Notes: generated from the sequence alone by a model not told the origin. Counted from the first letter of the stretch, positions 1 to 18,302 are shown. The stretch is DNA of 64,000 bases from Neisseriales bacterium (GCA_008017155.1 SSGX01000037.1:1-64000); one strand, 5' to 3'. Program-made: numbers and translations.

Positions 1-3000
1 AATGATAAAAAATATAGTTACAGTGAATTAAATAAGAAAGCTAATCAATTAGCGCATTATCTAAGAAGAGAATATCAATTATCAGGAGATAATCTAGTAG
101 CTTTATGTCTTGACCGTGATGAACAGATATTAATTGGGATATTAGGTGTATTAAAGGCTGGAGGAGCATATGTACCCTTAGATCCAAGCTATCCAAAAGA
201 GCGGATTAGTTATATTTTGGGAGATACAGAAGCTAAGGTAATATTGACGAATGAAAAGTATCTGGAAGAGTTTAGCGAGTTTGGTATTGATAGTATAGGA
301 CTTGATAGCAAGAATCAAGTGGAGATTTTGGCTAAAGAATCATCAATAAATCCTGAAGTAAGAATAAGTAGCAAAAATCTAGCCTATGTGATCTATACGA
401 GTGGGACAACTGGTAAGCCCAAAGGGGTTATGATCGAACATCATAGCGTTATTAATTTGATTATGAGTATTGATAAGGTTTATGATTTAGAGTTCGGGAA
501 TAAAATAACAGCTTTTACTAGCTATACTTTTGATGTTTCAGTTTCAGAGTTTTTTACCGCATTATTACGGGGTGCGGAATTACATTTATTTGCTGAAAAT
601 ATTCGCCGTGACCCAGATGCTATTTCACGTTATATTTTGGCAAATGACATTAATTATGTTTACTTACCACCAGTTCTCTTGGCATCTTTGCCACAAATTA
701 ATTATCCTAAGCTCCATGGCATAGTTTATGCGGGTGAACCATGCGATAGAAATACGGGTTCCTATTGGTCATCGCAAAAGAAACTTTTTAATTACTACGG
801 TCCTACTGAAACCACAATTTATTCTTTGGGTAAGCTGGTTATTGATGGTGATGTTAATCTTATCGGCCGCCCCTTGAATAACACGCAAGCCTATGTGTTA
901 GATGTGAGCTTATCATTATTGCCAATCGGCGAGGTAGGGGAACTATATATAGGAGGAGTGGGACTTGCACGTGGTTATCTAAATCGATCAGATTTAACAA
1001 CTGAAAGATTTATTACTAACCCATTCCAGAGTGCAGAAGATGAAGAGTTAGATAAAAACGCCCGCTTATATAAAACCGGGGATCTAGTTCGTTATTTAGC
1101 CGATGGGAATATAGAATATATTGGACGGAATGATTTTCAAGTAAAGATTCGAGGTTTCAGGATAGAGCTAGGGGAGATTGAAAATAAACTCCTAGAACAT
1201 CCGGAAATAAAACAGGTGGTAGTATTAGCCAATGAGTATAAAAATGCAAATGGGGAAGTATTACCAGAAAGTAAATATCTAGCAGCCTTTTATATTGCAA
1301 ATAAGACTTTAGCTGAGAATGAGCTTCATGAGTTTTTGGGTTCTAGACTACCAGATTATATGCATCCAAGTGTATTTGTTGCAATCGATAAATTACCTTT
1401 AACGATTAATGGTAAACTTGATCGAAAAGCACTACTTGGAATGCTTACTGAGAAAGTAACTGAAAACTATGATTATAGTGATTATCCAGAAATTGAAAGC
1501 TATCTAGCAAAACTCTGGCAGGAACTAATAGTATTAAATAATCGTAAGATAGAATTAAATGATAGCTTTTTTGGTTTAGGTGGACATTCATTACTAGTAA
1601 CTAAGCTAATCTTGAAGATTCGTAATGAATATGGAATAGTTTTAACACCACACCAAATTTATGAAGCAGGGACGTTATCTGGATTAGCTAATTTGATCCG
1701 GGATAGATCAGATAGCGAACAACAAGAGACAACAATACCGAAATTATATAGCGAGAGTCCAAACCATTATCTGCTAAATAAATATCAGTTAAGTATTTAT
1801 TTTGCACATCAATCAGATCCGATAGCTTACACTGTGCCAGTATTTATCAAATGTGACTCTTTATTAGATACTGAAAAAGCGAAGCTTACCTTTAGGAAAC
1901 TAGTCAATAAACATCGGATATTGTCGGGTTGTATCCAGCAATCAGATGAAGGACTAACACACATTATAAATGCAGATAAAGTCGAGATAATTACACAGAA
2001 ATTAGATGAATCTGATTTGGATAACTCTATAAATAGATTAGCTAGTAATGGGTTTGATCTAGGCAAATGTGTAACTGATTTCCGTATTCTTGAGATTGAT
2101 GCAGACAAACCTTATACAGTTTTATCTTTTAGTCATCACCATATTGTAGCTGATGGTTATTCCATTGATTTAATATTAAAAGACTATTTTGACTTTTATA
2201 ATGATAAAGAAATTAATGAGAGCTCCTATAATTATGCTGAAGCTAGTAGAGTAATCCAGACTAATAAGGAAGGGCATAATCAGTTATTTATTGAGTCAAT
2301 TTGCCCGTTAAATCCGCATTTTTCTTTACCTGCAAATAACCCTAACTCAAGTCAATCAGGAGTTCGTGAATACCGCTTGGAATTTAATTCTAAGCAAAAA
2401 AGCATTATTCGTAATCTGGCAAAAAGATATGATACTTCGATTAATAGCATCATGCTTGCTGGTTTGTATCTAGCCATGTATCGTTTTACCAGTGAAGAAA
2501 ATGTAAATCTTGGGGTTGTATTTGCTAATCGTGATAATCCATATCTAGCCGATGTTGTTGGTTGTATGGTTAATGCTCTACCATTAGAAATAAACTTTAC
2601 GGATAAAGATAACTATTCCGCTGATGAATTTATAAAAGACTTTGTAGCCAAATTAAATGCGCTCATTGAATATGGCAGTTATCCTTTAGTTGATCTACTT
2701 GAAATCGCAAGAATGAAGAGTAATGATAAATTAATTTCATTGTTTAATTTGGTTTTTGCAAGTCAATTTGTTAATGATTTGGAGAATAACGCGTCTCATT
2801 TTAATAAACTTACTCCAGCAAATAATCATGCAAAATTCGATCTGGCACTTAATTTTTATCATAAACTAGATCCTTTATATCTCGCGATTGAATTTAATCA
2901 AGGAAAATATACCTATGATTATATTGAAAGTTTTGCAAATGCTTTAATTGCAATATTTACTGGGATTGATGAAAGTATTAGTTCTTCAATTAATCATTTG

Positions 3001-3040
3001 CCATTATTAGATGAAGCGAATTACCAAAAAATTGTCTATG
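1..3040 (+). other. NRPS module 1 (A partial, T, C); substrate unknown
   Basis: The A domain covers about 1-1440 and lacks its first motif. The T domain serine is at 1588 (GLGGHSLL), and the C domain lies at about 1740-3030 with HHIVADG at 2137. Alignment to the GrsA Phe pocket gives D-V-S-Y-V-A-Y-I-Y for positions 235, 236, 239, 278, 299, 301, 322, 330 and 331. I do not recognise a substrate for this code. The C domain starts with YQLSIYFAHQ rather than the usual SFAQxRLWF of the other LCL-type domains, so it is the most divergent of the set. Confidence 0.75.
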
Positions 3041-6000
3041 AATGGAATGCGAATCAGAAGCCGCTGGTAGATAAATCTGTCGCAGAATTTTTTGAGATGC
3101 AGGTTCTTAAAAATCCGGATAAATTGGCAGTGGTTTATGAAGGCTATAAACTTACTTATGTTCAATTAAATCAAAAAGCCAATCAGCTGGCGCATTTTCT
3201 TAAATCTAATTATAAAATATCTGGCGATGATTTAATTGCTTTATGTTTTGAGCGTTCGGAGCAGATTATAATTGCAATTCTTGCGGTGATTAAGGCTGGT
3301 GGCGCTTATGTGCCGCTTGATTCAGGTTACCCGGATGAGCGAATTGGCTATATGCTTGAAGATACTCAAGCCAAAGTATTACTAACTAGCGAAAATTTTT
3401 ATGACCGCTTTACACAATTAGTTAATTCAAATATTTCTACTAATCTTCCGATAATTGCACTTGATTCAAAAGAGTTTATGTTAGATTTAGCTAAAGAGTC
3501 AAGTAATAATCTTGGAGCTTATCCAGAAGTTAATAGTCTAGTGTATGTGATTTATACCAGTGGAACAACCGGTAAGCCAAAAGGTGTGATGATTGAACAG
3601 CAACATCTAGTTTCGTTTGCAATCAATAATAACTATCTAAATCTTGGTGATGATGATCATTTTCTTGGTTATTCAGAGTATGTATTTGATGGTAGTGTTT
3701 TTGATATCTTTGTAGCATTATTAAATGGTGCAACGCTTACCCTTATCAATAAATCTGATGTCCTTAATCCGGTGACTTTGAGTAAGCTAATTACTGAGAA
3801 TAAAATTAATTTCCTTTTTACTACTACTGCTTTATTTCAGCATTACGCCTTAGCTGAAGAGAACCCTTTTGCCAAAATTGATAATATCTTTTTTGGTGGT
3901 GAGAAATGTGATAGCAAAATTATTCGAAAATTTATTACCGAGAATAGTTCGATTAATCTAACACATGTTTATGGTCCAACTGAGACAGTAGTATATTCTA
4001 ATTATTGTCATTTGAATTTAAGCAATGTTAATTTAGCTCCAATCGGTAAACCGTTAAACGATAAAACCGCATACGTACTTGATAAACATTTACAAGTGGT
4101 TCCGGTTGGTGCTATTGGCGAATTATATATTGGTGGTGATTCTATCGCTAGAGGATATTTGAATTTACCAGAACTTAGTAGTGAGCGTTTTATCAGTAAT
4201 CCATTACAATCGGAAGATGATAGAAAATCTGGAAGGAATAGCCGACTTTATAAGACTGGTGATCAAGTTCGTTATTTATCAGATGGCAATATTGAATATA
4301 TTGGACGCAATGACTTTCAGGTAAAAATTCGTGGCTTTCGAATTGAGATGGGCGAAATTGAAAGCGTTCTTGGTAAATATGGAGTTGTTGATGGCAAAGC
4401 TAGTCCAATTAAACAGTGTGTAGTCTTAGCCCTGGAACAAAAAGATTCTAATGGGAGTCTAAACGGAAATAAATACCTTGTAGCATATTATGTCTCAGAT
4501 CAAAAGCTTGATGATAGCGATATTTACTCGTATTTGCGGGTTTCTTTAGCCGAATATATGGTGCCCGCAGCATTGGTTTATTTGAATAAATTACCACTTA
4601 CTCTTAATGGTAAGATTGATCGGCGAGCATTACCCGAGCCAATTATTGCTACTACAGATAATTATGTTGCACCAAGAAATAAAGATGAGGAGCTTATCTG
4701 TAATATCTACGCTGAGATTCTTGGGATTGAGAATAATCGTGTTGGGATAATGGATGACTTTTTCAAAATTGGAGGTAATTCAATTATTGCTATTAAGTTA
4801 GTTAGCCGATTAAATAAAGAAGTTTTTAATGGTAAGCTTACCATTGCGAATATCTTCACCTGTAAGAATATTGCAAGTCTAGTTGATAAAATTGAGAGTG
4901 TAGAAGATATTGAAAATATAGAAATCTCAAGGAAAAGTTATTCTGAACAAGAAATTCTTAGTGGACTTGATAAAATAGGAGTACTTTCCTTTGCCCAAGA
5001 ACGGCTTTGGTTTATTGAAAATTATGAAGGTGGTAGTAATGCTTATAATACTCCTTTAGTCTATGAAATTAGTAATCAGACTCAGCTTGAATTTCTCGAA
5101 ACTGCTATCTATAATGTAGTTCAACGGCATGAGGTTTTACGTAGTATATTAAAGAATGATACAGATGGAAATCCATTCCAACAGGTGATGGACTTAGAAC
5201 AAAAGCCGTTAATCATCGGGCATAAATCAGCCACTAGCGAAATAGAATTAACCGAGCTCCTTGATCTTGATGTTAACTATATTTATGATCTTTCTAATGA
5301 TTATCCAATCCGGGTTAACATCTATGAACTTAATCTATCTGGTACCTCAAAATACTTTTTGTCTATTGTTGTTCATCATATCGCCTTTGATGGATGGTCT
5401 ATGGATGTGCTTTTACGTGATTTACATGCTTATTATGAGTATCATAAACAGCTTAAGCAAGATAGTCTTGAAAATACCTCTTTGGCGAGATTAAATTTAC
5501 CATTTCTTGATATTCAATATAAAGATTTTGCAAGCTGGCAAAGAGCTTACTTGAGTAGTGCTGTCCTTGAAAACCAATTAAACTATTGGCGTAACAAGCT
5601 TGATAATCATGTTGGTTTAAACATGGTTACTGAATTTCCGCGCCCAAATCAGGTAAATTATGCTGGAGATGATGTTTTATTTAGTATTGATCCTAAAACT
5701 AGTAAAGAATTGAGAACTATTGCTGCAAATCTTGGAGTCAGTCTCTATAGTCTAATGTTAAGTGGATTTTATATCTTCTTACGTGCTTATAGTAATCAAG
5801 ACGATATTATTATCGGTAGTCCTATCGCTAATCGCCATTATCGTCAGTTAGAAAATTTGGTTGGTTTTTTTGTAAATAGTCTTGCCCTTAGATCAAAGAT
5901 AAATCCAGATTCATCCTTACGTGATTATATTCTGGAAATCGGACGCGAAACTCTTGAAGCACAGTTGCATCAGGATCTACCGTTTGAAAGACTTATAAAT

Positions 6001-9000
6001 GATCTACAAATACCAAAGGATCAAAGTCGACATCCACTATTTCAAATAATGTTTGGTGTCCAATCTTTTGGTAGCACTAGTCATGAGAATATAAGACCTT
6101 ACTTTTCACTTTTTAATCAATATGAAACCTTTAATCATCGCGAATTTGGACTTTATGATGGATATAAAGTAGCTAAATTTGATATGACTATAATAATTAA
6201 CGATAGTGAGGAAGAGTTATATGGCACATTCAATTATGCAACTAGCTTATATAGTCGCGCTAGTATCGAACGGTTTATTGAAACATATCAGGTTATTTTG
6301 CGCCAGTTTACAGAAAAGCTTGAACGTCCAATAAAAGAAATTAGTTATTTAAGCGAGAAAAGCTATCGGCAAATAGCTCTTGATTGGAATGCAACGAAAG
6401 CCGAACTTCCTCTAAATAAAACATTACATCAGTTATTTGAAGAGCAGGTATTAAGAATTCCAGATAATATTGCAATAGTATCAGATGGAATTAGTCTTAG
6501 TTATAATGAATTTAATATTCGAGCAAATCAACTGGCTAATTATTTACAAGCTGAATTTGCGATCAAAGCTGATGATATGATAGTTCTATGTCTAGAGCGT
6601 AGTGAACACATGCTAATTGCCGTTCAAGGTGCTTTAAAGGCTGGAGCAGCTTATGTACCAATGGATCCAAGTTATCCAGATGATCGTAAGCGATATATAG
6701 CTAAGGATACCAAGACGAAAGTTTTGCTAACTACTCAAAAATTTGCTTCTGAATTAAAAGAGTTGATGTCAGAACTTGATTCAGCTGTAGAGGTTATTAG
6801 TCTTGATACCTTTGAATTTCAGCAAAAACTAGCTACATATCCGATAAATAATCCAAATACAGTAATGAGTAGTCGTAATCTAGCTTATGTGATTTATACT
6901 AGTGGTACAACAGGTAATCCAAAAGGTGTTATGCTTGAACATCGTGGAGTAGTTAATCGAATTATTTGGATGAATGACACATATCCACTAACAGAAAAAG
7001 ATCGAATTTTACAGAAAACCCCATATGTTTTTGATGTGTCGGTATGGGAGTTATTCTGGGCACATTGGTACGGTGCAAGAATTGTGTTTGCTAAACCGGA
7101 TGGACATAAGGACTCAAACTATCTGATTGAACTTATGAATAAATCTGGTATTACCGTTACCCATTTTGTTCCATCAATGTTAAGTGTATTTGAAGATACT
7201 CTTGAAGTAGAAGTTAATCAAGGTCGAATTAATAAAGAAAACCCAATTCCAAGCTTACGCTATATATTCTGTAGTGGTGAAGCCTTGACATTGCCACAAG
7301 CACAAAAATGTCATAAATTATTAGCAAAAACTGAATTACATAATTTGTATGGTCCTACAGAAGCTTCGGTGGATGTGCTTTATTATGATTGTACACCTAA
7401 AAACTTGTCTGCCGTTTATATCGGTAAGCCTGTCTATAATACTAGCTACTATGTGCTAGATAATAATCTAAATATCTTACCAATTGGCGCAGTTGGAGAG
7501 TTATTTATTGGTGGGGTACAATTGGCGCGTGGTTATTTGAATTTAGCTGAAATGACCGCTAGTAAGTTTATAACTAACCCATTTGAAACTATAGAAGAAA
7601 AGGAAACTGCTTGGCATCAGCGTTTATATCGTACTGGAGATTTGGTACGCTATTTACCAGATGGGAATATAGAATATATCGGACGCAATGATTTTCAAAT
7701 TAAGATTCGTGGTTTTAGGGTTGAGCTTGGCGAAATAGAAACTGCTTTACATGCATTTAGCGGTGTCAAAAATGCAATTGTCCTCGCATTAGAACATAAA
7801 GACGCTAATGGTAAACCTACTGGAAATAAGTATCTAGTTGGTTATTATGTTGCTGATAGTCAGCTTGAAGAAGATGTAGTCTTAAATACGATGGCATTAA
7901 AGTTACCTGAATATATGGTACCAAGTGCATTGGTGCATTTGACTACTTTACCAGTTACTATTAATGGTAAACTTGATCGGCGAGCATTACCAGAGCCTGA
8001 ATTTAAACGAAGTAATAACTATGTACTACCTAGAAATGAGTTAGAGAAGCAAGTCTCTGCGATTTTTGCTGAAGTTCTAGGTATTGAAGAAAGTAAAATT
8101 AGTATTCATGATGACTTTTTCCGTCTTGGCGGGGATAGCATTATAGCTATTATGCTTGTAAGTAGAATAAGACAACGCTTGAATCTGATTATAAGTGTAA
8201 AAGATATTTTTAGTTATAAGACTATAGCTAAATTACATGATAAAGTACTTTTACAGGCGCAGTTAAGTCTATTACAGGAACAATCATTAATTAGTGAAAC
8301 TGGTATTTTAACTGGAGAGTCGCCGTTATTACCTATTCAGGAATGGTTCTTTGATAAGGTTAGTAGTGGGGTCTTCACTAAACCAAATCATTGGAATATG
8401 TCATTTCTGATTCGTACTCCAGCCTTGGATATTGAACTTATCCGACTTTCAGCAACTAAGCTACTTGAATATCATGATAGTCTGCGCTTTGGTTATGCTA
8501 TTGATGATTTTGGTAACTATCATCAATATTATCGTTCACCAGATGAAATTAATCCTCTTTCAGTTAAATATCTAAATTGTAGTGGACTTAGTGAAGAAGC
8601 TTTAAATAATACCTTTACTGAGTGGCAGTCAGGTTTTGATCTCTTTTCAAATGAAGCCTTGGTTCAGATTGCTTATATTGATGGTTATCCTGATGGTAGT
8701 AGCAGGTTATTTTTTGCATTACATCATCTTTTAATTGGTGCTGTTAGCTGGCGGATAATTGCTAATGATATGAAGATACTTTATAGTAAATTTAGTGAAG
8801 TATCTGCCACATCAACAGATGAAGATCTCTTGGCTATAGATGTTGAGAGTATCCTTGGTGTGAAGGGGGCAAGCTATCGTCAATGGGTACAGGCAATAAA
8901 ATCATATGAAACTCTCTTTCCAGAAGAAAAAGAATACTGGTTACCACATATTACTAAAATGTCGGAGCGTAGAGAGAATGTTGATGCTTTATTAGCTGAG

Positions 9001-12000
9001 CTAGATAAGTCTATTTTTGCCAAACCAACCTCAGTTAAGTTTACTCTTGACAAAGAAACAACAAAGTTATTACTTGACGGTTGTAGTGCATATAATACTA
9101 AAGTAGATGATTTAGTCTTAACTGCAATTGGCTTAACCTTAGCAAAAACCGTTGCGGGTAATATAAATTATATCACTTTAGAGGGGCATGGGCGCGAGGA
9201 GCTCGTTAAAAATCTCGATTTGTCTCATACAACAGGATGGTGCACGACAATGTACCCAGTCCGTTTAGAGGTAAATCCCGATAGCCTACACGAAAGTATT
9301 ATCAAGGTAAAAGAGTCTATTCATAATATTCCTAATAAAGGAGTTGGCTATGGAGCATTATTTGGTTATATAAAACATCCATTACCAAGAATAAGTTTTA
9401 ATTATCTCGGGCAATTTGATGCTGGTAACACGGTAGCTAACTGGAAAATAACTGGCGAAGCTACGGGCACTTCGATGAGTAATGCTAATTGGGATACAAA
9501 TCTTTTTAATATGAATTGCCTGATTAGCCATGGTGAATTTACATTTCATCTGTCTTCATATTTAGCGTCATACATTCAGGATATTTTTGCTAATCAGACT
9601 AAAGAAAATTTATTAAAAATTATCACACATACGAATAGTTTGGGGCGTAACTATCTTACAGCTAGTGATGTTAATAATGTCATAGATGAAGAGTATATAG
9701 AAAAAGTTGAAGAGTTAAGAGATATTGAGGCCATCTTTTTGGCAAATAGTCTCCAGCAAGGGTTTATTTATCATGCCCTTAATAACGAGAATAGTGATAC
9801 GGCATACAGGATTCAATTATTACTTGCTTATGATAATCAACTTGATCCAGAGCTGTTTAAACTTGTTTGGCAGGCAATGGTTAATCGCTTTGGTAGCTTG
9901 CGCCTTAGGTTTGCTTGGGATGATGAGATCATACAAATTATTGATAAAAAGCAGGATCTATTTTGGAATTATACTGACTTAAGTGGGTTTGCTACAAATC
10001 AACATGAGGAATTGATTGATAAGATTATTCATGGCGATAGAGCAAATCCATATGATCTTAAATATGGTCAATTATTAAGAATCCATCTTATTAAATGTAC
10101 TAATGATCATTATCGTTGCCTAATTAGTTCTCATCATGCAATTCTTGATGGTTGGAGTACGCCATATCTTTTGAAGCATGTTCATGTTTTATACGAACAA
10201 TTAATCGGACTTAATAAAAATGAACAGAGTAAATTAATCGCGGGAGTTGTTTCAAAAGAAGTCTATAAGACAATTCAACAATTTTTACAAGAACATCGTC
10301 ACGAGCATAAAGCCTTTTGGCAGGAGCAGTTAAGCCTTATTGAGGATTCTCCAGACTTAAACGGACTAATAAGTCAGGAATATAAGGGAACAGTATTAGC
10401 CAAATATAGAAAAATCATCAAACGTGAGCAGTCATTGAAAGTTTTTGATGGCAAGTTTTCTGCAAGTATGCATGAGTTGGCAATAGAGTATGGGTTTACA
10501 GTTAATGCATTACTTCAGTTTGTGTGGCATAAAATTCTACATCTATATGGAAATGCCAGTACTACCGTAGTAGGTACTACAATATCGGGACGCAATCTAC
10601 CAATTGATGGAATCGAGGAGGCAATCGGCTTATTTATTAATACCTTACCTTTGATTGTCAAACATAATTCAAGTCAGACTATATTTGAAGCGATTGAAGC
10701 TGTACAACAAGCTGTTAATGATATGAATATGCATAGTGCTTGTAATCTTGCTGATCTGGAAAAAAATGATAAAAACCTCTTTGAAACTTTATTTGTCTAT
10801 GAAAATTATCCTTCGCCCCAAAAAGATGCTGATAGTTTGATTAAATTTAGTTTTAAGGCGGCTATTGAAGAACTTGATTATCCGTTGGCTATTCTTGCTT
10901 ATGAAAAAGATAATCAAGTGCATATAAACTTAAAATATGCGGCAGAGTTATTTAGTTCTGAAACTATTGATTCGATTTTATCTGTCTATGAAACGATACT
11001 TACTAATATAATAAACACAAGCGACCTCAAGACTAGATTAGTTAGTGAATTGCGGTTAATGGATGATTTAGACTATCAGCAGATTGTCTATGGCTGGAAT
11101 TCCTTATCAGCAGATTACCCAGTTGAGAAAACACTAGTTGAGTTATTCGAAGAGCAGGTTTTACGGACTCCTACAAATATTGCATTAGTTTATGAGGACA
11201 TTAGACTTAGTTACTCTGAATTAAATGAAAAAGCCAATCAGTTTGCTAATTATTTGCAGCTAAATTATCATATTAAGGCAGATGATCTTGTTGCGCTATA
11301 TCTAAATCGTAATGAGTATATGCTAATCGCGCTACTTGGTGTATTAAAAGCGGGAGCTGCGTATGTGCCATTAGATCCCGCTTATCCAGAAGAACGAACA
11401 AGTTATATCTTAGCCGATACAAAAGTTAATGTTATCTTTACAAATAATGAGTATCAGGATAAATTAAATACTTTATTGCTAGAGAATAATCTTAGTTGTA
11501 AACTAGAAACAGTAGATAGTACAAATGATTTTATAAAATTCTCTGAATTTTCAGCTAAGAATCTCAAGAAAATAATTAATTCGCGTAACCTTGCGTATGT
11601 AATTTACACTAGCGGTACTACTGGTAAGCCAAAAGGTGTAATGCTTGAACATGCGAGCGTTATTAATACAATAAGTGCCCTTGATGAGGTCTATGACTTA
11701 AATTATGGTAATAAAATAACTGCATTTACCAGTTATACTTTTGATGTTTCGGTATCTGAGTTTTTTACTGCATTACTACGTGGAGCAGAACTACATTTAT
11801 TTAGTGAAGAATTACGTCGAGATACACTCCTTCTTAGTCAGTATTTATTAGATAATGAAATTAACTATGTTTATCTACCGCCAGTAATTCTTTCCTCTTT
11901 AGCAAGAATAGATTATCCATCAATTCGTGGCATTATCTATGCCGGCGAGCCTTGTGATCCTGAAACAGGAAAGTACTGGTCAGAAAATAAGGTATTATTT

Positions 12001-15000
12001 AATTATTATGGACCTACCGAAACTAGTATCTATGCGCTTGGTAAGGTTGTCAAAAATGGTGATGTTAATTTAATTGGGCGTCCATTAGCAAATACTACTG
12101 CATACATTTTAGATGCTAGTCTTAATCCTTTGAATATTGGACAGATTGGGGAACTCTACCTTGGAGGCATTGGTCTTGCCCGCGGTTATCTAAATCGCCA
12201 AGATTTAACTAGTGAAAGATTTATTTCTAATCCTTTTCAAACTATTGATGAAAAACAGTTAGGTATTAATGATCGCTTATACAAAACAGGTGATCTTTGT
12301 CGGTATTTAGCGGATGGGAATATTGAATATCTGGGTCGCAATGATTTTCAGATCAAGATTCGTGGTTTCCGGATTGAATTAGGTGAAATAGAATCCGCAT
12401 TACGCAGTATTAATGGGATTAAGAATGCAGTAGCTTTGGCATTCGAGCATAAGAATTTAGAAACTAGTTCTAATTCTAATAAATATTTAGTTGCTTATTA
12501 TGTTGCTGAAAATAAACTTGATGAAGCTCAGTTACTTGTGGCAATAACAAGTAAATTACCTGAATATATGCTACCTAGCGCGCTAGTACATTTAAAACAA
12601 CTTCCTATTACTGTTAATGGAAAGCTTGATCGGCGTGCATTGCCTGTACCAGATATGACTTCTGGGAGCATTAGCTATATTGCTCCACGGAATGAAGTAG
12701 AAAGTATTGTAGCTGGAGTTATTGCTGAGGTTCTTAGTATAGCTAAAGAGCAAGTTGGTATTTATGATGACTTTTTTAAACTTGGTGCTAATTCGATTTC
12801 GCTTATAAAAATAGCCAGTCGTTTGAATGCTGAATTAAAAAATACCTCAGTTAAAGTTTCTCATTTATTTAAGCATAGAAATATTGCTAGCTTACTAGAA
12901 AATTTTAATCTTAATGAGTCAGATAAGCAAAATAAAATGGTTCCAGTCAAAGGAGGCGATAAATTTCCTCTTTCATTTGCACAGGAACGTTTATGGTTTA
13001 TTGAAACATATGAAAATAATGTTAATGCCTACAATACGTTGATGGTTCATGAGTTAGTTGATAATATAGATATTACTATTCTTGAAGAGTCGCTTTTTAG
13101 CACTATTAAACGCCATCAAGTATTACATAGCCTGATTCAGACTGATGCTAGTGGTCATGGTTATCAACAAATTGGTGACTTAATTAGAGCTAGCTTTACC
13201 TTAGAAAAAGTCGAGGTTGCTAGTCTTGATGAATTAAGAAAAGAGATCGAGCTTCAAGTCAATTATCATTTTGATTTAAGTATTGAATATCCATTCTTAA
13301 TAAAACTCTACCAGTTAAATGTTGGGAATCAGAGCATAGGAAGATATCTTACGATAGTTATCCACCATATTGCCTTTGATGGCTGGTCTATGGATATTTT
13401 TCTTCGTGATATGGAGTCATATTATGAGTATTATCTTCAGCAGAAAATTGATCCTCGCTGTAAACTACAATTACCAGATCTTGATGTGCAGTATAAAGAT
13501 TTTGCTATCTGGCAAAGGAAACATTTATCAGGGGTATATCTTAGTGAACAGCTGAATTTCTGGAATAATAAGTTAGCTGGTTTTAGTAGTCTTAATCTAC
13601 CTACCGATTATTTGCGCCCGGTAAATTTTGATTATCAAGGGGATAATTGTTATTTTAAATTAGATGCTGAACTATCAATTAAAGTTCGGGAATTAAGTAA
13701 AAAGCTGGGCGTTAGTTTATATAGTACACTTTTAAGCGGCTTTTATCTGTTACTAAATGCTTATTCTGGTCAGTCTGATATTGTTATTGGTAGCCCAGTT
13801 GCAAATCGTAATTATCCACAGCTTGAGAATATGGTCGGTTTTTTTGTAAATACTTTGGCGATGCGAAGTATAATTGATAAATCTTTGCAAATTGAAGAGT
13901 ATATTAAATCTGTTGGCAATGAAATAGTGACAGCACAACTTCATGAGGATTTACCTTTTGAGCAGCTGGTAAACTGTCTTGGCATCGATAAAGATAGTAG
14001 CAGACATCCAATTTTTCAGGTAATGTTTAGTGTTCAGAGCTTTGGTGCAGCTAGTGAGCCTAAGAGTAGCGGTCTATTTAAACCTAACTCCATACATTAT
14101 TACGAGGAGTTAGGTATTACTGATAGTTATAAAGTTGCTAAATTTGATCTTAGTTTGATGATGAATGATGAGGGTAGTGAGATTCATGGTACCTTTAACT
14201 TTGCTACGAGTATTTTTAATCGTTTGACAATTGAAAGACTTATCAAAACATATTTGCACATTCTATCACAGCTTACCACAAAATCTGAAACTAAGCTTGC
14301 AGAAATAGTGTATCTAACAGATATTGAAAAGAATCATTTATTATATGAACTAAATCAAACTAGAGACGATACTCGTACTAATGAAAATGTTATTCAGTTA
14401 TTTGAAGAGCAAGTTAAACGAACTCCGACAAATATTGCTTTAGTTTATGAAAATGTCAAATTAACTTATCTTGAGTTAAATCTAAAAGTAAACCAGTTAG
14501 CTAATTATCTTCAAGATCGCTATCAAATAATTCCAGATCAGCGGATAGCTCTTTTTCTTGAACGTAGTCAAGAAATGTTAGTTGCTATGCTGGCTATTTT
14601 AAAAATAGGTGCAGCTTACCTTCCTATAGCACCCGATTATCCAGATGAGCGAATAAACTATATTCTCGCAGATGCTGAGGTTAGTTTGATCTTAACTAAT
14701 ACTAAGCATGATAGCCGATTAGCTTCATTTGTTAATTTATCGTTGATTGAATTAGATGATGAAAAACAAATAGCTGAGATTAAGAAGGCAAATACTGAAA
14801 ATCCACTAGTTAAGATTGATACAAATAGCTTAGCCTATGTAATTTATACTAGTGGTACAACCGGGAAACCAAAAGGCGTAATGGTTGAACATCGTAGCCT
14901 TGTAAATCTAACCATGGTTGAAGCTAATGAATTTGATTTGCCTTTGGTATATCCAGAGGGTAGCAATAATTATTCTCTACAGCGTAATTGTTTACAATAT

Positions 15001-15819
15001 GCTAGTTACGTTTTTGATGCCCATGTATGGGAAACGTTTGTTGTAATTACACGAGGTCATCAGTTGCATATTTTATCTGATGCTAGACGTCAGGATATTG
15101 ATCTTCTTGCTGAATATGTTGAAGCGAACCAGATTTATTTTGCAACAATTCCTCCTGCATTGTTGGTTAAAAATCGCTTGATTCAGGTGCAAAAACTGGT
15201 TGTTGCTGGAGATAAAACAGATGCGTCGGTAATGAAAGAATATTATACAAATGGTATTGATGTAATAAATGCTTATGGACCTACCGAAACAACGGTTTGT
15301 GCGACAATAAAACATTTTGCTAGTAATGTCTCGAATACCAATATCGGAACTCCAATTACAAATTATACTGCATATGTTCTTGATGTTAATTTGCAGTTAT
15401 TGCCAGCTGGTTCTATCGGTGAATTGTATATCGGTGGAGAAGGGCTTGCCAGAGGCTATCTGAATAATCAATCTTTAACTGATGAGCGCTTTTTGCCAAA
15501 TCCTTATCAAAGTGCAAGTGAACAAATAGAAGGCAGAAATTCAAGAATCTATAAAACTGGTGATTTGGTTAGGTATCTTGAAAATGGTGAGCTTGAGTAT
15601 GTTGGGCGAGATGATTCTCAAGTTAAAATTCGCGGTTTTAGAATAGAGCTTAGTGAAATTGAAGCGGTGCTTTCAAATTATAAATCAGCTAACACTGATT
15701 TACTAATTGAACAAAGTGTTGTAATTGCAATTAGTCACAAAGATGGCCATAATAAATACTTGGTAGCTTATTATGTGGCAAAAGAAAAATTACTGAGTCA
15801 GCAATCCTTGAGTATTTAG
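1..15819 (+). CDS. Non-ribosomal peptide synthetase, 5'-truncated by the window and frame-broken near its 3' end
   Basis: The frame is open from base 1 without a start, so the gene begins upstream. It encodes about 5270 residues of a modular peptide synthetase. Five adenylation (A) domains show the core motif YTSGTTGxPKGVM (near 391, 3553, 6895, 11608, 14845) and the YGPTE motif. Carrier (T) domains carry phosphopantetheine serines at 1588, 4780, 8137 and 12793. Condensation (C) domains have HHxxxDG at 2137, 5374, about 10135 and 13363. An epimerization (E) domain follows the third T domain. Order: A-T-C-A-T-C-A-T-E-C-A-T-C-A. The frame stops at 15817 inside the fifth A domain, just before its A10 motif, and homology continues in another frame. 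Codon use is AT-rich like the flanking genes, so recent transfer is not obvious. Family assignment is certain; the product is not known. Confidence 0.97.
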   Translation, partial: NDKKYSYSELNKKANQLAHYLRREYQLSGDNLVALCLDRDEQILIGILGVLKAGGAYVPLDPSYPKERISYILGDTEAKVILTNEKYLEEFSEFGIDSIGLDSKNQVEILAKESSINPEVRISSKNLAYVIYTSGTTGKPKGVMIEHHSVINLIMSIDKVYDLEFGNKITAFTSYTFDVSVSEFFTALLRGAELHLFAENIRRDPDAISRYILANDINYVYLPPVLLASLPQINYPKLHGIVYAGEPCDRNTGSYWSSQKKLFNYYGPTETTIYSLGKLVIDGDVNLIGRPLNNTQAYVLDVSLSLLPIGEVGELYIGGVGLARGYLNRSDLTTERFITNPFQSAEDEELDKNARLYKTGDLVRYLADGNIEYIGRNDFQVKIRGFRIELGEIENKLLEHPEIKQVVVLANEYKNANGEVLPESKYLAAFYIANKTLAENELHEFLGSRLPDYMHPSVFVAIDKLPLTINGKLDRKALLGMLTEKVTENYDYSDYPEIESYLAKLWQELIVLNNRKIELNDSFFGLGGHSLLVTKLILKIRNEYGIVLTPHQIYEAGTLSGLANLIRDRSDSEQQETTIPKLYSESPNHYLLNKYQLSIYFAHQSDPIAYTVPVFIKCDSLLDTEKAKLTFRKLVNKHRILSGCIQQSDEGLTHIINADKVEIITQKLDESDLDNSINRLASNGFDLGKCVTDFRILEIDADKPYTVLSFSHHHIVADGYSIDLILKDYFDFYNDKEINESSYNYAEASRVIQTNKEGHNQLFIESICPLNPHFSLPANNPNSSQSGVREYRLEFNSKQKSIIRNLAKRYDTSINSIMLAGLYLAMYRFTSEENVNLGVVFANRDNPYLADVVGCMVNALPLEINFTDKDNYSADEFIKDFVAKLNALIEYGSYPLVDLLEIARMKSNDKLISLFNLVFASQFVNDLENNASHFNKLTPANNHAKFDLALNFYHKLDPLYLAIEFNQGKYTYDYIESFANALIAIFTGIDESISSSINHLPLLDEANYQKIVYEWNANQKPLVDKSVAEFFEMQVLKNPDKLAVVYEGYKLTYVQLNQKANQLAHFLKSNYKISGDDLIALCFERSEQIIIAILAVIKAGGAYVPLDSGYPDERIGYMLEDTQAKVLLTSENFYDRFTQLVNSNISTNLPIIALDSKEFMLDLAKESSNNLGAYPEVNSLVYVIYTSGTTGKPKGVMIEQQHLVSFAINNNYLNLGDDDHFLGYSEYVFDGSVFDIFVALLNGATLTLINKSDVLNPVTLSKLITENKINFLFTTTALFQHYALAEENPFAKIDNIFFGGEKCDSKIIRKFITENSSINLTHVYGPTETVVYSNYCHLNLSNVNLAPIGKPLNDKTAYVLDKHLQVVPVGAIGELYIGGDSIARGYLNLPELSSERFISNPLQSEDDRKSGRNSRLYKTGDQVRYLSDGNIEYIGRNDFQVKIRGFRIEMGEIESVLGKYGVVDGKASPIKQCVVLALEQKDSNGSLNGNKYLVAYYVSDQKLDDSDIYSYLRVSLAEYMVPAALVYLNKLPLTLNGKIDRRALPEPIIATTDNYVAPRNKDEELICNIYAEILGIENNRVGIMDDFFKIGGNSIIAIKLVSRLNKEVFNGKLTIANIFTCKNIASLVDKIESVEDIENIEISRKSYSEQEILSGLDKIGVLSFAQERLWFIENYEGGSNAYNTPLVYEISNQTQLEFLETAIYNVVQRHEVLRSILKNDTDGNPFQQVMDLEQKPLIIGHKSATSEIELTELLDLDVNYIYDLSNDYPIRVNIYELNLSGTSKYFLSIVVHHIAFDGWSMDVLLRDLHAYYEYHKQLKQDSLENTSLARLNLPFLDIQYKDFASWQRAYLSSAVLENQLNYWRNKLDNHVGLNMVTEFPRPNQVNYAGDDVLFSIDPKTSKELRTIAANLGVSLYSLMLSGFYIFLRAYSNQDDIIIGSPIANRHYRQLENLVGFFVNSLALRSKINPDSSLRDYILEIGRETLEAQLHQDLPFERLINDLQIPKDQSRHPLFQIMFGVQSFGSTSHENIRPYFSLFNQYETFNHREFGLYDGYKVAKFDMTIIINDSEEELYGTFNYATSLYSRASIERFIETYQVILRQFTEKLERPIKEISYLSEKSYRQIALDWNATKAELPLNKTLHQLFEEQVLRIPDNIAIVSDGISLSYNEFNIRANQLANYLQAEFAIKADDMIVLCLERSEHMLIAVQGALKAGAAYVPMDPSYPDDRKRYIAKDTKTKVLLTTQKFASELKELMSELDSAVEVISLDTFEFQQKLATYPINNPNTVMSSRNLAYVIYTSGTTGNPKGVMLEHRGVVNRIIWMNDTYPLTEKDRILQKTPYVFDVSVWELFWAHWYGARIVFAKPDGHKDSNYLIELMNKSGITVTHFVPSMLSVFEDTLEVEVNQGRINKENPIPSLRYIFCSGEALTLPQAQKCHKLLAKTELHNLYGPTEASVDVLYYDCTPKNLSAVYIGKPVYNTSYYVLDNNLNILPIGAVGELFIGGVQLARGYLNLAEMTASKFITNPFETIEEKETAWHQRLYRTGDLVRYLPDGNIEYIGRNDFQIKIRGFRVELGEIETALHAFSGVKNAIVLALEHKDANGKPTGNKYLVGYYVADSQLEEDVVLNTMALKLPEYMVPSALVHLTTLPVTINGKLDRRALPEPEFKRSNNYVLPRNELEKQVSAIFAEVLGIEESKISIHDDFFRLGGDSIIAIMLVSRIRQRLNLIISVKDIFSYKTIAKLHDKVLLQAQLSLLQEQSLISETGILTGESPLLPIQEWFFDKVSSGVFTKPNHWNMSFLIRTPALDIELIRLSATKLLEYHDSLRFGYAIDDFGNYHQYYRSPDEINPLSVKYLNCSGLSEEALNNTFTEWQSGFDLFSNEALVQIAYIDGYPDGSSRLFFALHHLLIGAVSWRIIANDMKILYSKFSEVSATSTDEDLLAIDVESILGVKGASYRQWVQAIKSYETLFPEEKEYWLPHITKMSERRENVDALLAELDKSIFAKPTSVKFTLDKETTKLLLDGCSAYNTKVDDLVLTAIGLTLAKTVAGNINYITLEGHGREELVKNLDLSHTTGWCTTMYPVRLEVNPDSLHESIIKVKESIHNIPNKGVGYGALFGYIKHPLPRISFNYLGQFDAGNTVANWKITGEATGTSMSNANWDTNLFNMNCLISHGEFTFHLSSYLASYIQDIFANQTKENLLKIITHTNSLGRNYLTASDVNNVIDEEYIEKVEELRDIEAIFLANSLQQGFIYHALNNENSDTAYRIQLLLAYDNQLDPELFKLVWQAMVNRFGSLRLRFAWDDEIIQIIDKKQDLFWNYTDLSGFATNQHEELIDKIIHGDRANPYDLKYGQLLRIHLIKCTNDHYRCLISSHHAILDGWSTPYLLKHVHVLYEQLIGLNKNEQSKLIAGVVSKEVYKTIQQFLQEHRHEHKAFWQEQLSLIEDSPDLNGLISQEYKGTVLAKYRKIIKREQSLKVFDGKFSASMHELAIEYGFTVNALLQFVWHKILHLYGNASTTVVGTTISGRNLPIDGIEEAIGLFINTLPLIVKHNSSQTIFEAIEAVQQAVNDMNMHSACNLADLEKNDKNLFETLFVYENYPSPQKDADSLIKFSFKAAIEELDYPLAILAYEKDNQVHINLKYAAELFSSETIDSILSVYETILTNIINTSDLKTRLVSELRLMDDLDYQQIVYGWNSLSADYPVEKTLVELFEEQVLRTPTNIALVYEDIRLSYSELNEKANQFANYLQLNYHIKADDLVALYLNRNEYMLIALLGVLKAGAAYVPLDPAYPEERTSYILADTKVNVIFTNNEYQDKLNTLLLENNLSCKLETVDSTNDFIKFSEFSAKNLKKIINSRNLAYVIYTSGTTGKPKGVMLEHASVINTISALDEVYDLNYGNKITAFTSYTFDVSVSEFFTALLRGAELHLFSEELRRDTLLLSQYLLDNEINYVYLPPVILSSLARIDYPSIRGIIYAGEPCDPETGKYWSENKVLFNYYGPTETSIYALGKVVKNGDVNLIGRPLANTTAYILDASLNPLNIGQIGELYLGGIGLARGYLNRQDLTSERFISNPFQTIDEKQLGINDRLYKTGDLCRYLADGNIEYLGRNDFQIKIRGFRIELGEIESALRSINGIKNAVALAFEHKNLETSSNSNKYLVAYYVAENKLDEAQLLVAITSKLPEYMLPSALVHLKQLPITVNGKLDRRALPVPDMTSGSISYIAPRNEVESIVAGVIAEVLSIAKEQVGIYDDFFKLGANSISLIKIASRLNAELKNTSVKVSHLFKHRNIASLLENFNLNESDKQNKMVPVKGGDKFPLSFAQERLWFIETYENNVNAYNTLMVHELVDNIDITILEESLFSTIKRHQVLHSLIQTDASGHGYQQIGDLIRASFTLEKVEVASLDELRKEIELQVNYHFDLSIEYPFLIKLYQLNVGNQSIGRYLTIVIHHIAFDGWSMDIFLRDMESYYEYYLQQKIDPRCKLQLPDLDVQYKDFAIWQRKHLSGVYLSEQLNFWNNKLAGFSSLNLPTDYLRPVNFDYQGDNCYFKLDAELSIKVRELSKKLGVSLYSTLLSGFYLLLNAYSGQSDIVIGSPVANRNYPQLENMVGFFVNTLAMRSIIDKSLQIEEYIKSVGNEIVTAQLHEDLPFEQLVNCLGIDKDSSRHPIFQVMFSVQSFGAASEPKSSGLFKPNSIHYYEELGITDSYKVAKFDLSLMMNDEGSEIHGTFNFATSIFNRLTIERLIKTYLHILSQLTTKSETKLAEIVYLTDIEKNHLLYELNQTRDDTRTNENVIQLFEEQVKRTPTNIALVYENVKLTYLELNLKVNQLANYLQDRYQIIPDQRIALFLERSQEMLVAMLAILKIGAAYLPIAPDYPDERINYILADAEVSLILTNTKHDSRLASFVNLSLIELDDEKQIAEIKKANTENPLVKIDTNSLAYVIYTSGTTGKPKGVMVEHRSLVNLTMVEANEFDLPLVYPEGSNNYSLQRNCLQYASYVFDAHVWETFVVITRGHQLHILSDARRQDIDLLAEYVEANQIYFATIPPALLVKNRLIQVQKLVVAGDKTDASVMKEYYTNGIDVINAYGPTETTVCATIKHFASNVSNTNIGTPITNYTAYVLDVNLQLLPAGSIGELYIGGEGLARGYLNNQSLTDERFLPNPYQSASEQIEGRNSRIYKTGDLVRYLENGELEYVGRDDSQVKIRGFRIELSEIEAVLSNYKSANTDLLIEQSVVIAISHKDGHNKYLVAYYVAKEKLLSQQSLSI
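3041..6370 (+). other. NRPS module 2 (A, T, LCL-type C); predicted isoleucine
   Basis: A domain about 3060-4650, T serine at 4780 (KIGGNS), C domain about 4970-6350 with HHIAFDG at 5374. Pocket residues by alignment to GrsA are D-G-F-F-F-G-V-V-Y, one step from the bacitracin-type Ile code DGFFLGVVY, so isoleucine (or valine) is the likely substrate. No E domain follows, and the next C domain starts SFAQERLWF, as expected for an L-donor (LCL) domain. Confidence 0.75.
6371..11080 (+). other. NRPS module 3 (A, T, E, DCL-type C); predicted D-serine
   Basis: A domain about 6390-7990 and T serine at 8137 in GGDS, the form usual before an E domain. E domain about 8290-9650, then a C domain about 9720-11080 with HHAILDG. 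The pocket reads D-V-W-H-F-S-L-V-D, a standard serine code. The C domain begins with SLQQGFIYH, typical of DCL domains that accept a D-donor, which agrees with epimerization upstream. The E domain's HHxxxDG-type motif is altered (HHLLIGAVSW at 8722). Confidence 0.78.
11081..14340 (+). other. NRPS module 4 (A, T, LCL-type C); same unknown substrate as module 1
   Basis: A domain about 11100-12650; C domain about 12960-14330 with SFAQERLWF and HHIAFDG (13363). Pocket residues are D-V-S-Y-I-A-Y-I-Y, differing from module 1 only by Val/Ile. The surrounding A-domain core is also almost the same as in module 1 (for example FTSYTFDVSVSEFFTALLRG in both), pointing to internal duplication. The carrier motif is LGANS (serine 12793) instead of GGxS. 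Confidence 0.75.
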
Positions 15820-15840
15820 CAAATAAATTACCGGAGTATA
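15778..15840 (+). other. Frame break in NRPS A domain
   Basis: Upstream homology (KYLVAYYVAKEK) is read in the frame of base 1 up to about 15789. Downstream homology (EYLANKLPEYMIPV) is read one base back. Adding one A to the run at 15785-15789 would join the two without a stop. The present frame stops at 15817. No standard slippery heptamer is visible. Confidence 0.85.
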
Positions 15841-18302
15841 TGATTCCAGTGCGGGTTATTTGGCTTAATAAACTACCAATGACAATTAATGGTAAGCTAG
15901 ATATAAAAGCTCTCCCAGCAATAGATGATAATGTTGATTATTACCAGCCGCCGCAAAATGAGCTTCAATATGGTTTATGTCGTGCGTTTGCTGAAGTTCT
16001 TAATCTTGACCCTCATCGGATTGGTATTAATGATGATTTCTTTAGGCTAGGTGGTGATAGTATTCTGGCTATTCAATTAATAAGCCGATTGCGGCAGAAT
16101 ATGTCACTTCAAATCTCGGTAAAAGAAATATTTGTAAATAAAACGGTTGCTAAACTTGCTTCACTTTGTGAGTCAGCTAAACAAAAAGAGGATAAGGTAA
16201 TTATTTCAGAGTCAGGTGTACTTTCTGGTCGCTGTAAATTATTACCTATTCAGAACTGGTTTTTTACCAATGTTCAAAATGGATATTTTGCTGATCCGGG
16301 CTACTGGAATCAATCATTCACCATAAAAGTAACTAAATTAGAACCTAATCTACTAGATTGCGCATTATATAAATTAGTTGAATATCATGATGCATTAAGA
16401 TTTACTTATAGTATGGCTAACGATGGAAGTTACTTACAAGAATATCAACACTATTCTAGAGATATGGTTAAGGCGGACTATCTAAATCGGACAAATTTAT
16501 CTGAATTAGAATATCAGGAGATACTAACAAGTCGTCAAAAAAATTATAATTTATTTGGCGATTTACCGCTATTTAGTATAAGCTATGTTGAGGGTTTTGC
16601 TGATGCTAGTTATCGACTTGTATTTTCTATTCATCATTTATTGATTGCTACAATTGGCTGGCGAATTATTGCTGATGATCTTAAAATATTGTACGAGAAA
16701 TTACACCAGTTGCAAGAAGAGCGAAATTTATCTATTGATGAACTATATCAGACTGATACTGAGGAGCTTCTTGGGGCAAAAGGAACTAGCTATAGACAAT
16801 GGGTTGATGCGATTAATGCCTATAGTAGTTTGCATGATAAGGAGAGCCTATATTGGCAATCATTCCTTCCCGGGATTAAAACATATAATCGTCAACTACT
16901 TTCGTTTTGCAATGACGAGCAGATAAATAGACTTCATTTTGAATTTGAATTATCTCTAGATACAACAACTCAATTATTAACTAAATCTAGACAAATTTTT
17001 AATTTAGGTGTATCCGACCTTTTATTGGCTAGTCTAGCGATTGCTTTAGAGAAACTAACTGGTTTAGCACATCAATATATTACTGTCGAAGGACACGGTA
17101 AAGAAGATATCGCAACTAATATTGATATTTCTCGTACAATTGGCTGGTTTACTTCGATGTATCCAATGTCAATTGATACTTCAGAATCCGATATAAGCAT
17201 TATTCTATCTAGACTTAAAGAAACTATCCCAAATATACCAAATAATGGGGTTGGTTTTGGCGCGATATTTGGCTATGATGCTGATAATTTACCAAAAATT
17301 GCATTTAACTATCTAGGTCAGTTTGATAAAGCTGGAGTTAGTAAAGAATGGAGTATTATAGCAGAAGTATCTGGTCAACAATCCAGTCAAAATAATATCA
17401 GTCCTAATCTACTTGATATAAATTGTTTTATTATTGATGGATTACTTCATTTTGATATATCAAGTACAATTGAAGAGGGCAAGTTAAATAAACTTATCGC
17501 TGATTTTAAAAATTCCCTTGATACTTTAGCTAATCAGTCAGTAGGTCAGAGCCTCCTTAATCACTATCAGATTAATGAATTTGTTAGCGATTTTAATGAT
17601 GTTTATACGATCTTTAATGAAACAAGACCTAATAATATTTTTATCTTACCACCGGGTGAAGGTGGGTATGAATCTTATTTGGCTACGTTGGTACCCTTAG
17701 TTACTACTAGCAAACTTATTTTATTTAATAACTATTATAATCACTTAAAAACTAAAATTGATTTGACTGAGGCTAGTAATATAGACTTTAGTTTTCTTGC
17801 TAAATTCTATATCCAGTACATCAAGGAAATTCAGCCACACGGGACTTATAATCTCTTTGGTTGGTCATTTGGTGGAGTATTAGCTTTTGAGATTGCGCGT
17901 CAGCTCGAGGCTTTAGGTGATAAGGTTAGTTTTCTTGGGCTAGTTGATTCATTCTTTAATTATAAAGAAGTTGCACTAAACCTAGGTATAACTAACCAAA
18001 TTAAGAATGATATAAATTATCAATATACTCCAGATTATTTCTTTCACAATAATAGTAATTGTCCAGTAGTATTTTTTAAGGCTGAGCACCAGCTTGATCT
18101 TGAAAACTCATTGGCAGATAAGGATAAAGAAAAACAGCTGGTATTTTCATATTATTTAACTAGCCATGCTAATTTGATAGAAAACTATATGCTTACTGAT
18201 AATTTACGTGTGATCAATCTAGCCGCTAATCATTATAACTGGATTAAAAATACTGTAGCAGTTACTCAGGTTGCTAGTATTTTGGATGAGTTAGGCAGAT
18301 GA
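15840..18302 (+). CDS. NRPS 3' part: end of A domain, T, E and thioesterase domains
   Basis: This frame continues the synthetase after the break near 15790. Homology already starts at about 15795, before the first ATG (15840), with the residues EYLANKLPEYM that match the same place in the other four A domains. It holds the A10 motif NGKLDIKALP, a T domain (DDFFRLGGDS, serine at 16059), an epimerization domain (about 16200-17570, with EGHGKE and NYLGQFD motifs) and a C-terminal type I thioesterase (about 17600-18290). The thioesterase has nucleophile motif GWSFGG with serine at 17865 and a late histidine in NHYNW. It should release or cyclize the peptide. The ATG at 15840 is unlikely to be a natural start because it lies inside the A domain. 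The real gene is probably one reading frame interrupted by a one-base deletion or an assembly error. Confidence 0.93.
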   Translation: MIPVRVIWLNKLPMTINGKLDIKALPAIDDNVDYYQPPQNELQYGLCRAFAEVLNLDPHRIGINDDFFRLGGDSILAIQLISRLRQNMSLQISVKEIFVNKTVAKLASLCESAKQKEDKVIISESGVLSGRCKLLPIQNWFFTNVQNGYFADPGYWNQSFTIKVTKLEPNLLDCALYKLVEYHDALRFTYSMANDGSYLQEYQHYSRDMVKADYLNRTNLSELEYQEILTSRQKNYNLFGDLPLFSISYVEGFADASYRLVFSIHHLLIATIGWRIIADDLKILYEKLHQLQEERNLSIDELYQTDTEELLGAKGTSYRQWVDAINAYSSLHDKESLYWQSFLPGIKTYNRQLLSFCNDEQINRLHFEFELSLDTTTQLLTKSRQIFNLGVSDLLLASLAIALEKLTGLAHQYITVEGHGKEDIATNIDISRTIGWFTSMYPMSIDTSESDISIILSRLKETIPNIPNNGVGFGAIFGYDADNLPKIAFNYLGQFDKAGVSKEWSIIAEVSGQQSSQNNISPNLLDINCFIIDGLLHFDISSTIEEGKLNKLIADFKNSLDTLANQSVGQSLLNHYQINEFVSDFNDVYTIFNETRPNNIFILPPGEGGYESYLATLVPLVTTSKLILFNNYYNHLKTKIDLTEASNIDFSFLAKFYIQYIKEIQPHGTYNLFGWSFGGVLAFEIARQLEALGDKVSFLGLVDSFFNYKEVALNLGITNQIKNDINYQYTPDYFFHNNSNCPVVFFKAEHQLDLENSLADKDKEKQLVFSYYLTSHANLIENYMLTDNLRVINLAANHYNWIKNTVAVTQVASILDELGR

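Follow-up and report, generated by a model that had tools for sequence, protein, structure and literature searches.

Probable alanine specificity of a recurrent adenylation-domain core in the 3' part of an orphan peptide synthetase from a low-GC betaproteobacterium

Solonamides A and B have the structure acyl-L-Phe-D-Leu-D-Ala-L-Leu (PMC3280567). Their gene cluster is a bioinformatic assignment, for which experimental evidence is absent (PMC7793655), and the strain that produces them is also the producer of ngercheumicin, which contains three Leu, two Thr and one Ser (PMC3877902). A Photobacterium genome (G1016, its genus taken from grouping with Photobacterium sp. GJ3, G998) encodes a single synthetase of 5333 residues with the domain order Cst-A-T-C-A-T-E-C-A-T-E-C-A-T-TE, whose four specificity codes, DAWTIAAVC, DAYFHGQVC, DVSYLAFIY and DAYFHGQVC, read Phe-Leu-X-Leu, with X specified by the core of module 3. 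The first of these is a Phe code, a single code serves both Leu positions of solonamide, and the epimerisation (E) domains, in modules 2 and 3, fall exactly at the two D residues. Because the Phe, Leu and Leu codes and the E positions all fit solonamide, the third code is read as Ala. A second synthetase in this genome, with six modules reading Leu-Thr-Ser-Thr-Leu-(DAMFIGAAY), fits ngercheumicin by its codes.

The stretch analysed here (the window, 64,000 nucleotides) is the first 64 kb of a 113-kb contig (C50) in a draft genome of 2.47 Mb (63 contigs, 81% complete, contamination 0.07) from a low-GC betaproteobacterium whose nearest relatives form one genus. The contig edge is window position 1, and all features described within the window lie on the plus strand. 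A synthetase frame, ORF1 (1-15819, 5272 residues), is open from base 1 and hence on its 5' side; ORF2 (15840-18302, 820 residues) follows. Together they encode A1-T1-C2-A2-T2-C3-A3-T3-E3-C4-A4-T4-C5-A5 // T5-E5-TE, a modular type I nonribosomal peptide synthetase (NRPS) line whose C-A-T modules recur with their core motifs intact and which ends, in ORF2, with a PF00975 thioesterase. All C-domain HHxxxDG motifs and all carrier Ser residues are intact. The line shares with the solonamide-type synthetase of G1016, and a relative in sp. GJ3, the clade of the X core, the C-A-T(-E) logic and the terminal thioesterase. The solonamide type differs in having a starter C domain, four modules in the order Phe-Leu-Ala-Leu, intact E motifs and a core only about 49% identical to that of A1; the window line has neither that starter nor that order, and its putative start on another contig (C47, below) is an A domain rather than a starter C domain.

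A1 (1-1440), which the contig edge truncates at its 5' end, carries the code DVSYVAYIY and is predicted to activate Ala. It is followed by the T1 carrier motif FGLGGHSL (1570-1593), the condensation domain C2 (1762-3036; PF00668, with HHHIVADG), A2-T2 (3091-4785; DGFFFGVVY, predicted Ile) and C3 (4981-6375), which domain search and tree place in the LCL type. Next come A3-T3 (6436-8142; DVWHFSLVD, predicted Ser), E3 (8317-9672) and C4 (9739-11085), which falls among the C domains found after E domains (DCL type, tree support 0.999). A4-T4 (11146-12798) has the code DVSYIAYIY and, from profile alignment and core tree, is again predicted to be an Ala module; its carrier motif at 12775-12798 reads LGANS against the usual GG[DHN]S, with the carrier Ser retained. 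C5 (12958-14343), LCL-type by the same means, leads to A5 (14401-15819; DAWTVAAVC, predicted Phe), which an early stop at 15819 shortens. ORF2 then supplies the A10 motif of A5, T5 (16041-16064), E5 (16236-17531) and the thioesterase, with its motif GWSFGG at 17859-17876.

Profile alignment of all A domains reproduced exactly the five codes that an earlier note on this DNA had given, and its Ile, Ser and Phe calls are supported: the A2 code differs by one residue from DGFFLGVVY, which we take to be a known Ile code, and that of A3 is presumably a Ser code. Chance does not account for the repeated code DVSY[V/I]AYIY, since the cores of A1 and A4 (72-73% identical) are closer than their flanks (57-62%) and other members of a monophyletic family have this code too. 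The solved structures of LgrA, GrsA and TycA have the canonical A-domain architecture and the code numbering in common with these domains, but their cores are only distantly related to the X core (at most 72 bits).

When 84,980 species genomes were scanned by pattern for the repeated code, matches came from a Rickettsia endosymbiont of Culicoides, a Coxiellaceae metagenome-assembled genome, seven Legionella-group genomes, many Chryseobacterium and Chitinophaga genomes and a congener of the source organism (G002), with the variants DVSYLALIY, DVSYIAIIY and DVSYMALIY. Photobacterium (where a plasmid search first pointed to sp. GJ3) adds further members, as do genomes of one family in the same order, which are probably alteromonads. 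In a tree of 181 cores, the 23 members retained all fall into a single clade (support 0.99); the Photobacterium core is nested inside it, and both X cores of the window belong to this clade of the solonamide module-3 core. The Photobacterium code departs from those of the window at position 299 (L against V/I) and position 322 (F against Y), and the GJ3 core is 98% identical to that of G1016 but just 49% to that of A1.

The architectures around this core vary widely. Giant synthetases of Chryseobacterium and Chitinophaga (DVSYLALIY or DVSYIAYIY) have cores of the same clade, often repeated, but run to between ten and more than 20 modules in the parts read and specify other peptides; we know of no product for them. 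One Chitinophaga genome (G134, contig C1, 5745001-5865000 and 6185001-6285000; L095-L105) has NRPS frames of about 35,000 and 30,000 residues in which Val-type and X codes abound; the parts read hold 22 and 24 A domains. No genome could be assigned to chitinopeptin, a peptide with D-Ala, as only six of 79 Chitinophaga genomes gave a match. An eight-module synthetase conserved in at least three species (G824, G703, G694 and G737, L134-L145; five modules read in G737) has the codes Ala(X)-Thr-Phe-Asn-Leu?-Ser-Gly-(DAAIIGEIT), and to our knowledge its product has not been described. In Legionella, the code found in A4 occurs in compact C-A(DVSYIAYIY)-T-R genes, which differ from the window line in having a single module, reductase release and a hybrid sensor kinase next to them. 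Such a C-A-T-reductase gene, followed by a gene for a PAS hybrid histidine kinase, is present at L054 (8147-14549), L059, L072 and L077, and the arrangement looks like that of a small signal of aldehyde type paired with a dedicated sensor.

The residue most likely specified by the repeated code is alanine, by collinearity rather than by assay; we know of no clade member that has been assayed as an enzyme. Bulky residues (V236, Y/F278, Y/L/I/F322 and Y331) fill the pocket, as would fit a small side chain, and a common amino acid would suit the occurrence in Rickettsia, an obligate intracellular organism, the absence of adjoining precursor genes at the compact Legionella loci and the frequency of the code in one Chitinophaga genome, where it accounts for 10 of 46 modules read. 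Proline was considered on account of DVQYIAHVV, presumably a Pro code, and was set aside when Pro-type cores proved no nearer than others (26-31% mean identity). Of the cores outside the clade, aromatic ones are some of the nearest, at about 33%, but the X pocket is far more filled and the collinearity points to Ala, so an aromatic substrate was rejected as well.

The earlier note had taken the repeated code to mark an uncommon building block, a reading that is not supported, since the clade holds a solonamide-collinear module at the Ala position and the code most likely means alanine. A non-proteinogenic substrate would suit the failure of a full-text search of 5.4 million papers to match the repeated code (a search for a remembered Ala code likewise found no match), as it would the lack of a close core among solved A domains (best score 72 bits, against 337 for the self match); set against the solonamide collinearity, the Legionella loci without precursor genes and the Chitinophaga frequency, it seems very improbable. 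Alternatively, the clade might accept small residues generally, the variant with Y322 and V/I299 selecting Gly, Ser, 2-aminobutyrate, Val or similar. Position 322 does vary among Y, L, I and F within the clade, and LgrA module 2 has a Gly pocket, DIANLCIIY as read in the alignment, that shares D235, I330 and Y331 with the X pocket and is similar elsewhere. The clade is nevertheless monophyletic and its sole product-tied member sits at Ala, and we regard this broader specificity as unlikely.

A synthetase gene runs off the end of contig C47, and its first A domain (A0, with the code DASTVAAVC) matches the window's first 245 bp exactly. At the protein level the flanks of this domain are 97% and 96% identical to those of A1 and the core only 34%, the opposite of the pattern between A1 and A4. 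Because A1 combines flanks like those on C47 with a dissimilar core, while A4 shows the reverse, A1 is on sequence comparison clearly a duplicated A domain with an exchanged core, the swapped stretch spanning about nt 456-861, roughly 400 bp. Upstream of the C47 synthetase gene lies a gene for an AurF-like di-iron protein (PF11583, two DExxH motifs). It occupies L007 1967-2884 on the minus strand of C47, directly upstream of the starter module, and has a homologue in the same place in the congener G002 (L056 62-1009). That congener (MAG JAIETT010000232.1, Burkholderiales bacterium) carries in one piece the AurF-like gene and A(DASTVAAVC)-T-C-A(DVSYIAYIY)-T-TE, the same succession proposed for the window line, although there the thioesterase follows after two modules and is itself followed by ATP-grasp, membrane-protein and phosphopantetheinyl transferase (PPTase) genes. 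The unbroken order in G002 supports placing C47 before the window, so the missing start of the line, AurF-like gene plus DASTVAAVC starter module, is probably on C47, with a gap of about one T-C stretch left between the two contigs. The expectation that more lies upstream holds, though the piece in question looks like one starter module, not several. The pairing of AurF-like protein and aromatic starter module is seen in two species of the genus, and one may speculate, though we consider it unlikely, that the protein N-oxidises the starter amino acid to give an N-oxygenated (hydroxylamino, oxime or nitro) aromatic-Ala-Ile-Ser-Ala-Phe peptide.

Elsewhere in the source genome, a second NRPS (L005, contig C62, 4409-16816) has two Cys-type modules (DLYNLSLIW) and a terminal thioesterase; its first two C domains lack HH motifs and are cyclisation-like, and its first A domain is shortened beside transposase remnants. 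A congener with a complete genome has the same code set at L045, with the first A domain full. At L006 (6420-8922, contig C27), a stand-alone condensation domain adjoins a PLP-decarboxylase-like gene.

The E domains lie where the earlier note had put them, but the D configurations it assigned to Ser and Phe are doubtful, because the Asp of HHxxxDxxSW is lost in both, replaced by Gly in E3 (HHLLIGAVSW) and by Ala in E5 (HHLLIATIGW). Both retain the EGHGR/K motif (EGHGR in E3) and fall in the E clade with support 1.0. The same Asp is kept in four of four Photobacterium E domains, in 11 of 11 from the alteromonad-like genomes, and in 13 Chitinophaga matches and one Chryseobacterium match; the remaining strings from the latter two genera look, over the portions given, like other HH stretches. 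In GrsA, mutation of this residue weakens epimerisation but need not abolish it. The earlier account also lacked a frame break in A5. ORF1 ends in the C-terminal subdomain of A5 and the A10 motif continues in a different frame; the ORF2 frame is open from 15756, which confines the break to 15756-15819, most likely at the A-run near 15785-15789. The break falls inside a domain rather than at a gene boundary between domains, and may be either an assembly error or a real mutation.

Such a break, with the loss from both E domains of an Asp that is kept in the Photobacterium, alteromonad-like and Chitinophaga E domains looked at, is what one would expect of a decaying pseudogene that makes no peptide. 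Yet 15.8 kb of frame is otherwise open, the condensation and carrier motifs are all intact, and one indel at an A-run is the kind of error typical of assemblies, so that decay, while it has something to recommend it, is on balance doubtful. The assembly bears on the start of the line too: in an incomplete 63-contig draft, A domains with flanks as alike as those of A0 and A1 could be strain variants (two haplotypes) of one starter module, which would leave, in this strain, a five-module line starting with X. In G002, however, a single gene located after the same AurF-like gene carries DASTVAAVC and then DVSYIAYIY, and contamination of the bin is low; we hold two successive modules to be the better account and a pair of haplotypes to be a tentative alternative, rather improbable. 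The account that we favour as a whole, with good though not full confidence, is that an orphan NRPS lies with its 3' part in the window and that its A1 and A4 cores, members of the DVS[YF]xAxIY clade, most likely activate alanine. The full line would probably begin on C47 with the AurF-like gene and an aromatic-type starter module, A1 arose by exchange of the specificity core in a duplicated A domain, and the predicted product, (Tyr/Phe)-Ala-Ile-Ser-Ala-Phe, would be freed by the terminal thioesterase.

The cluster in the window is in itself an ordinary orphan NRPS, and its value lies in pointing to a likely substrate of a code present in at least six lineages. The A0/A1 pair offers a clean natural core exchange with junctions visible at base level. 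If DVS[YF]xAxIY does denote alanine, many orphan peptides of Chryseobacterium, Chitinophaga, Legionella and the Rickettsia endosymbiont would become readable one step further.
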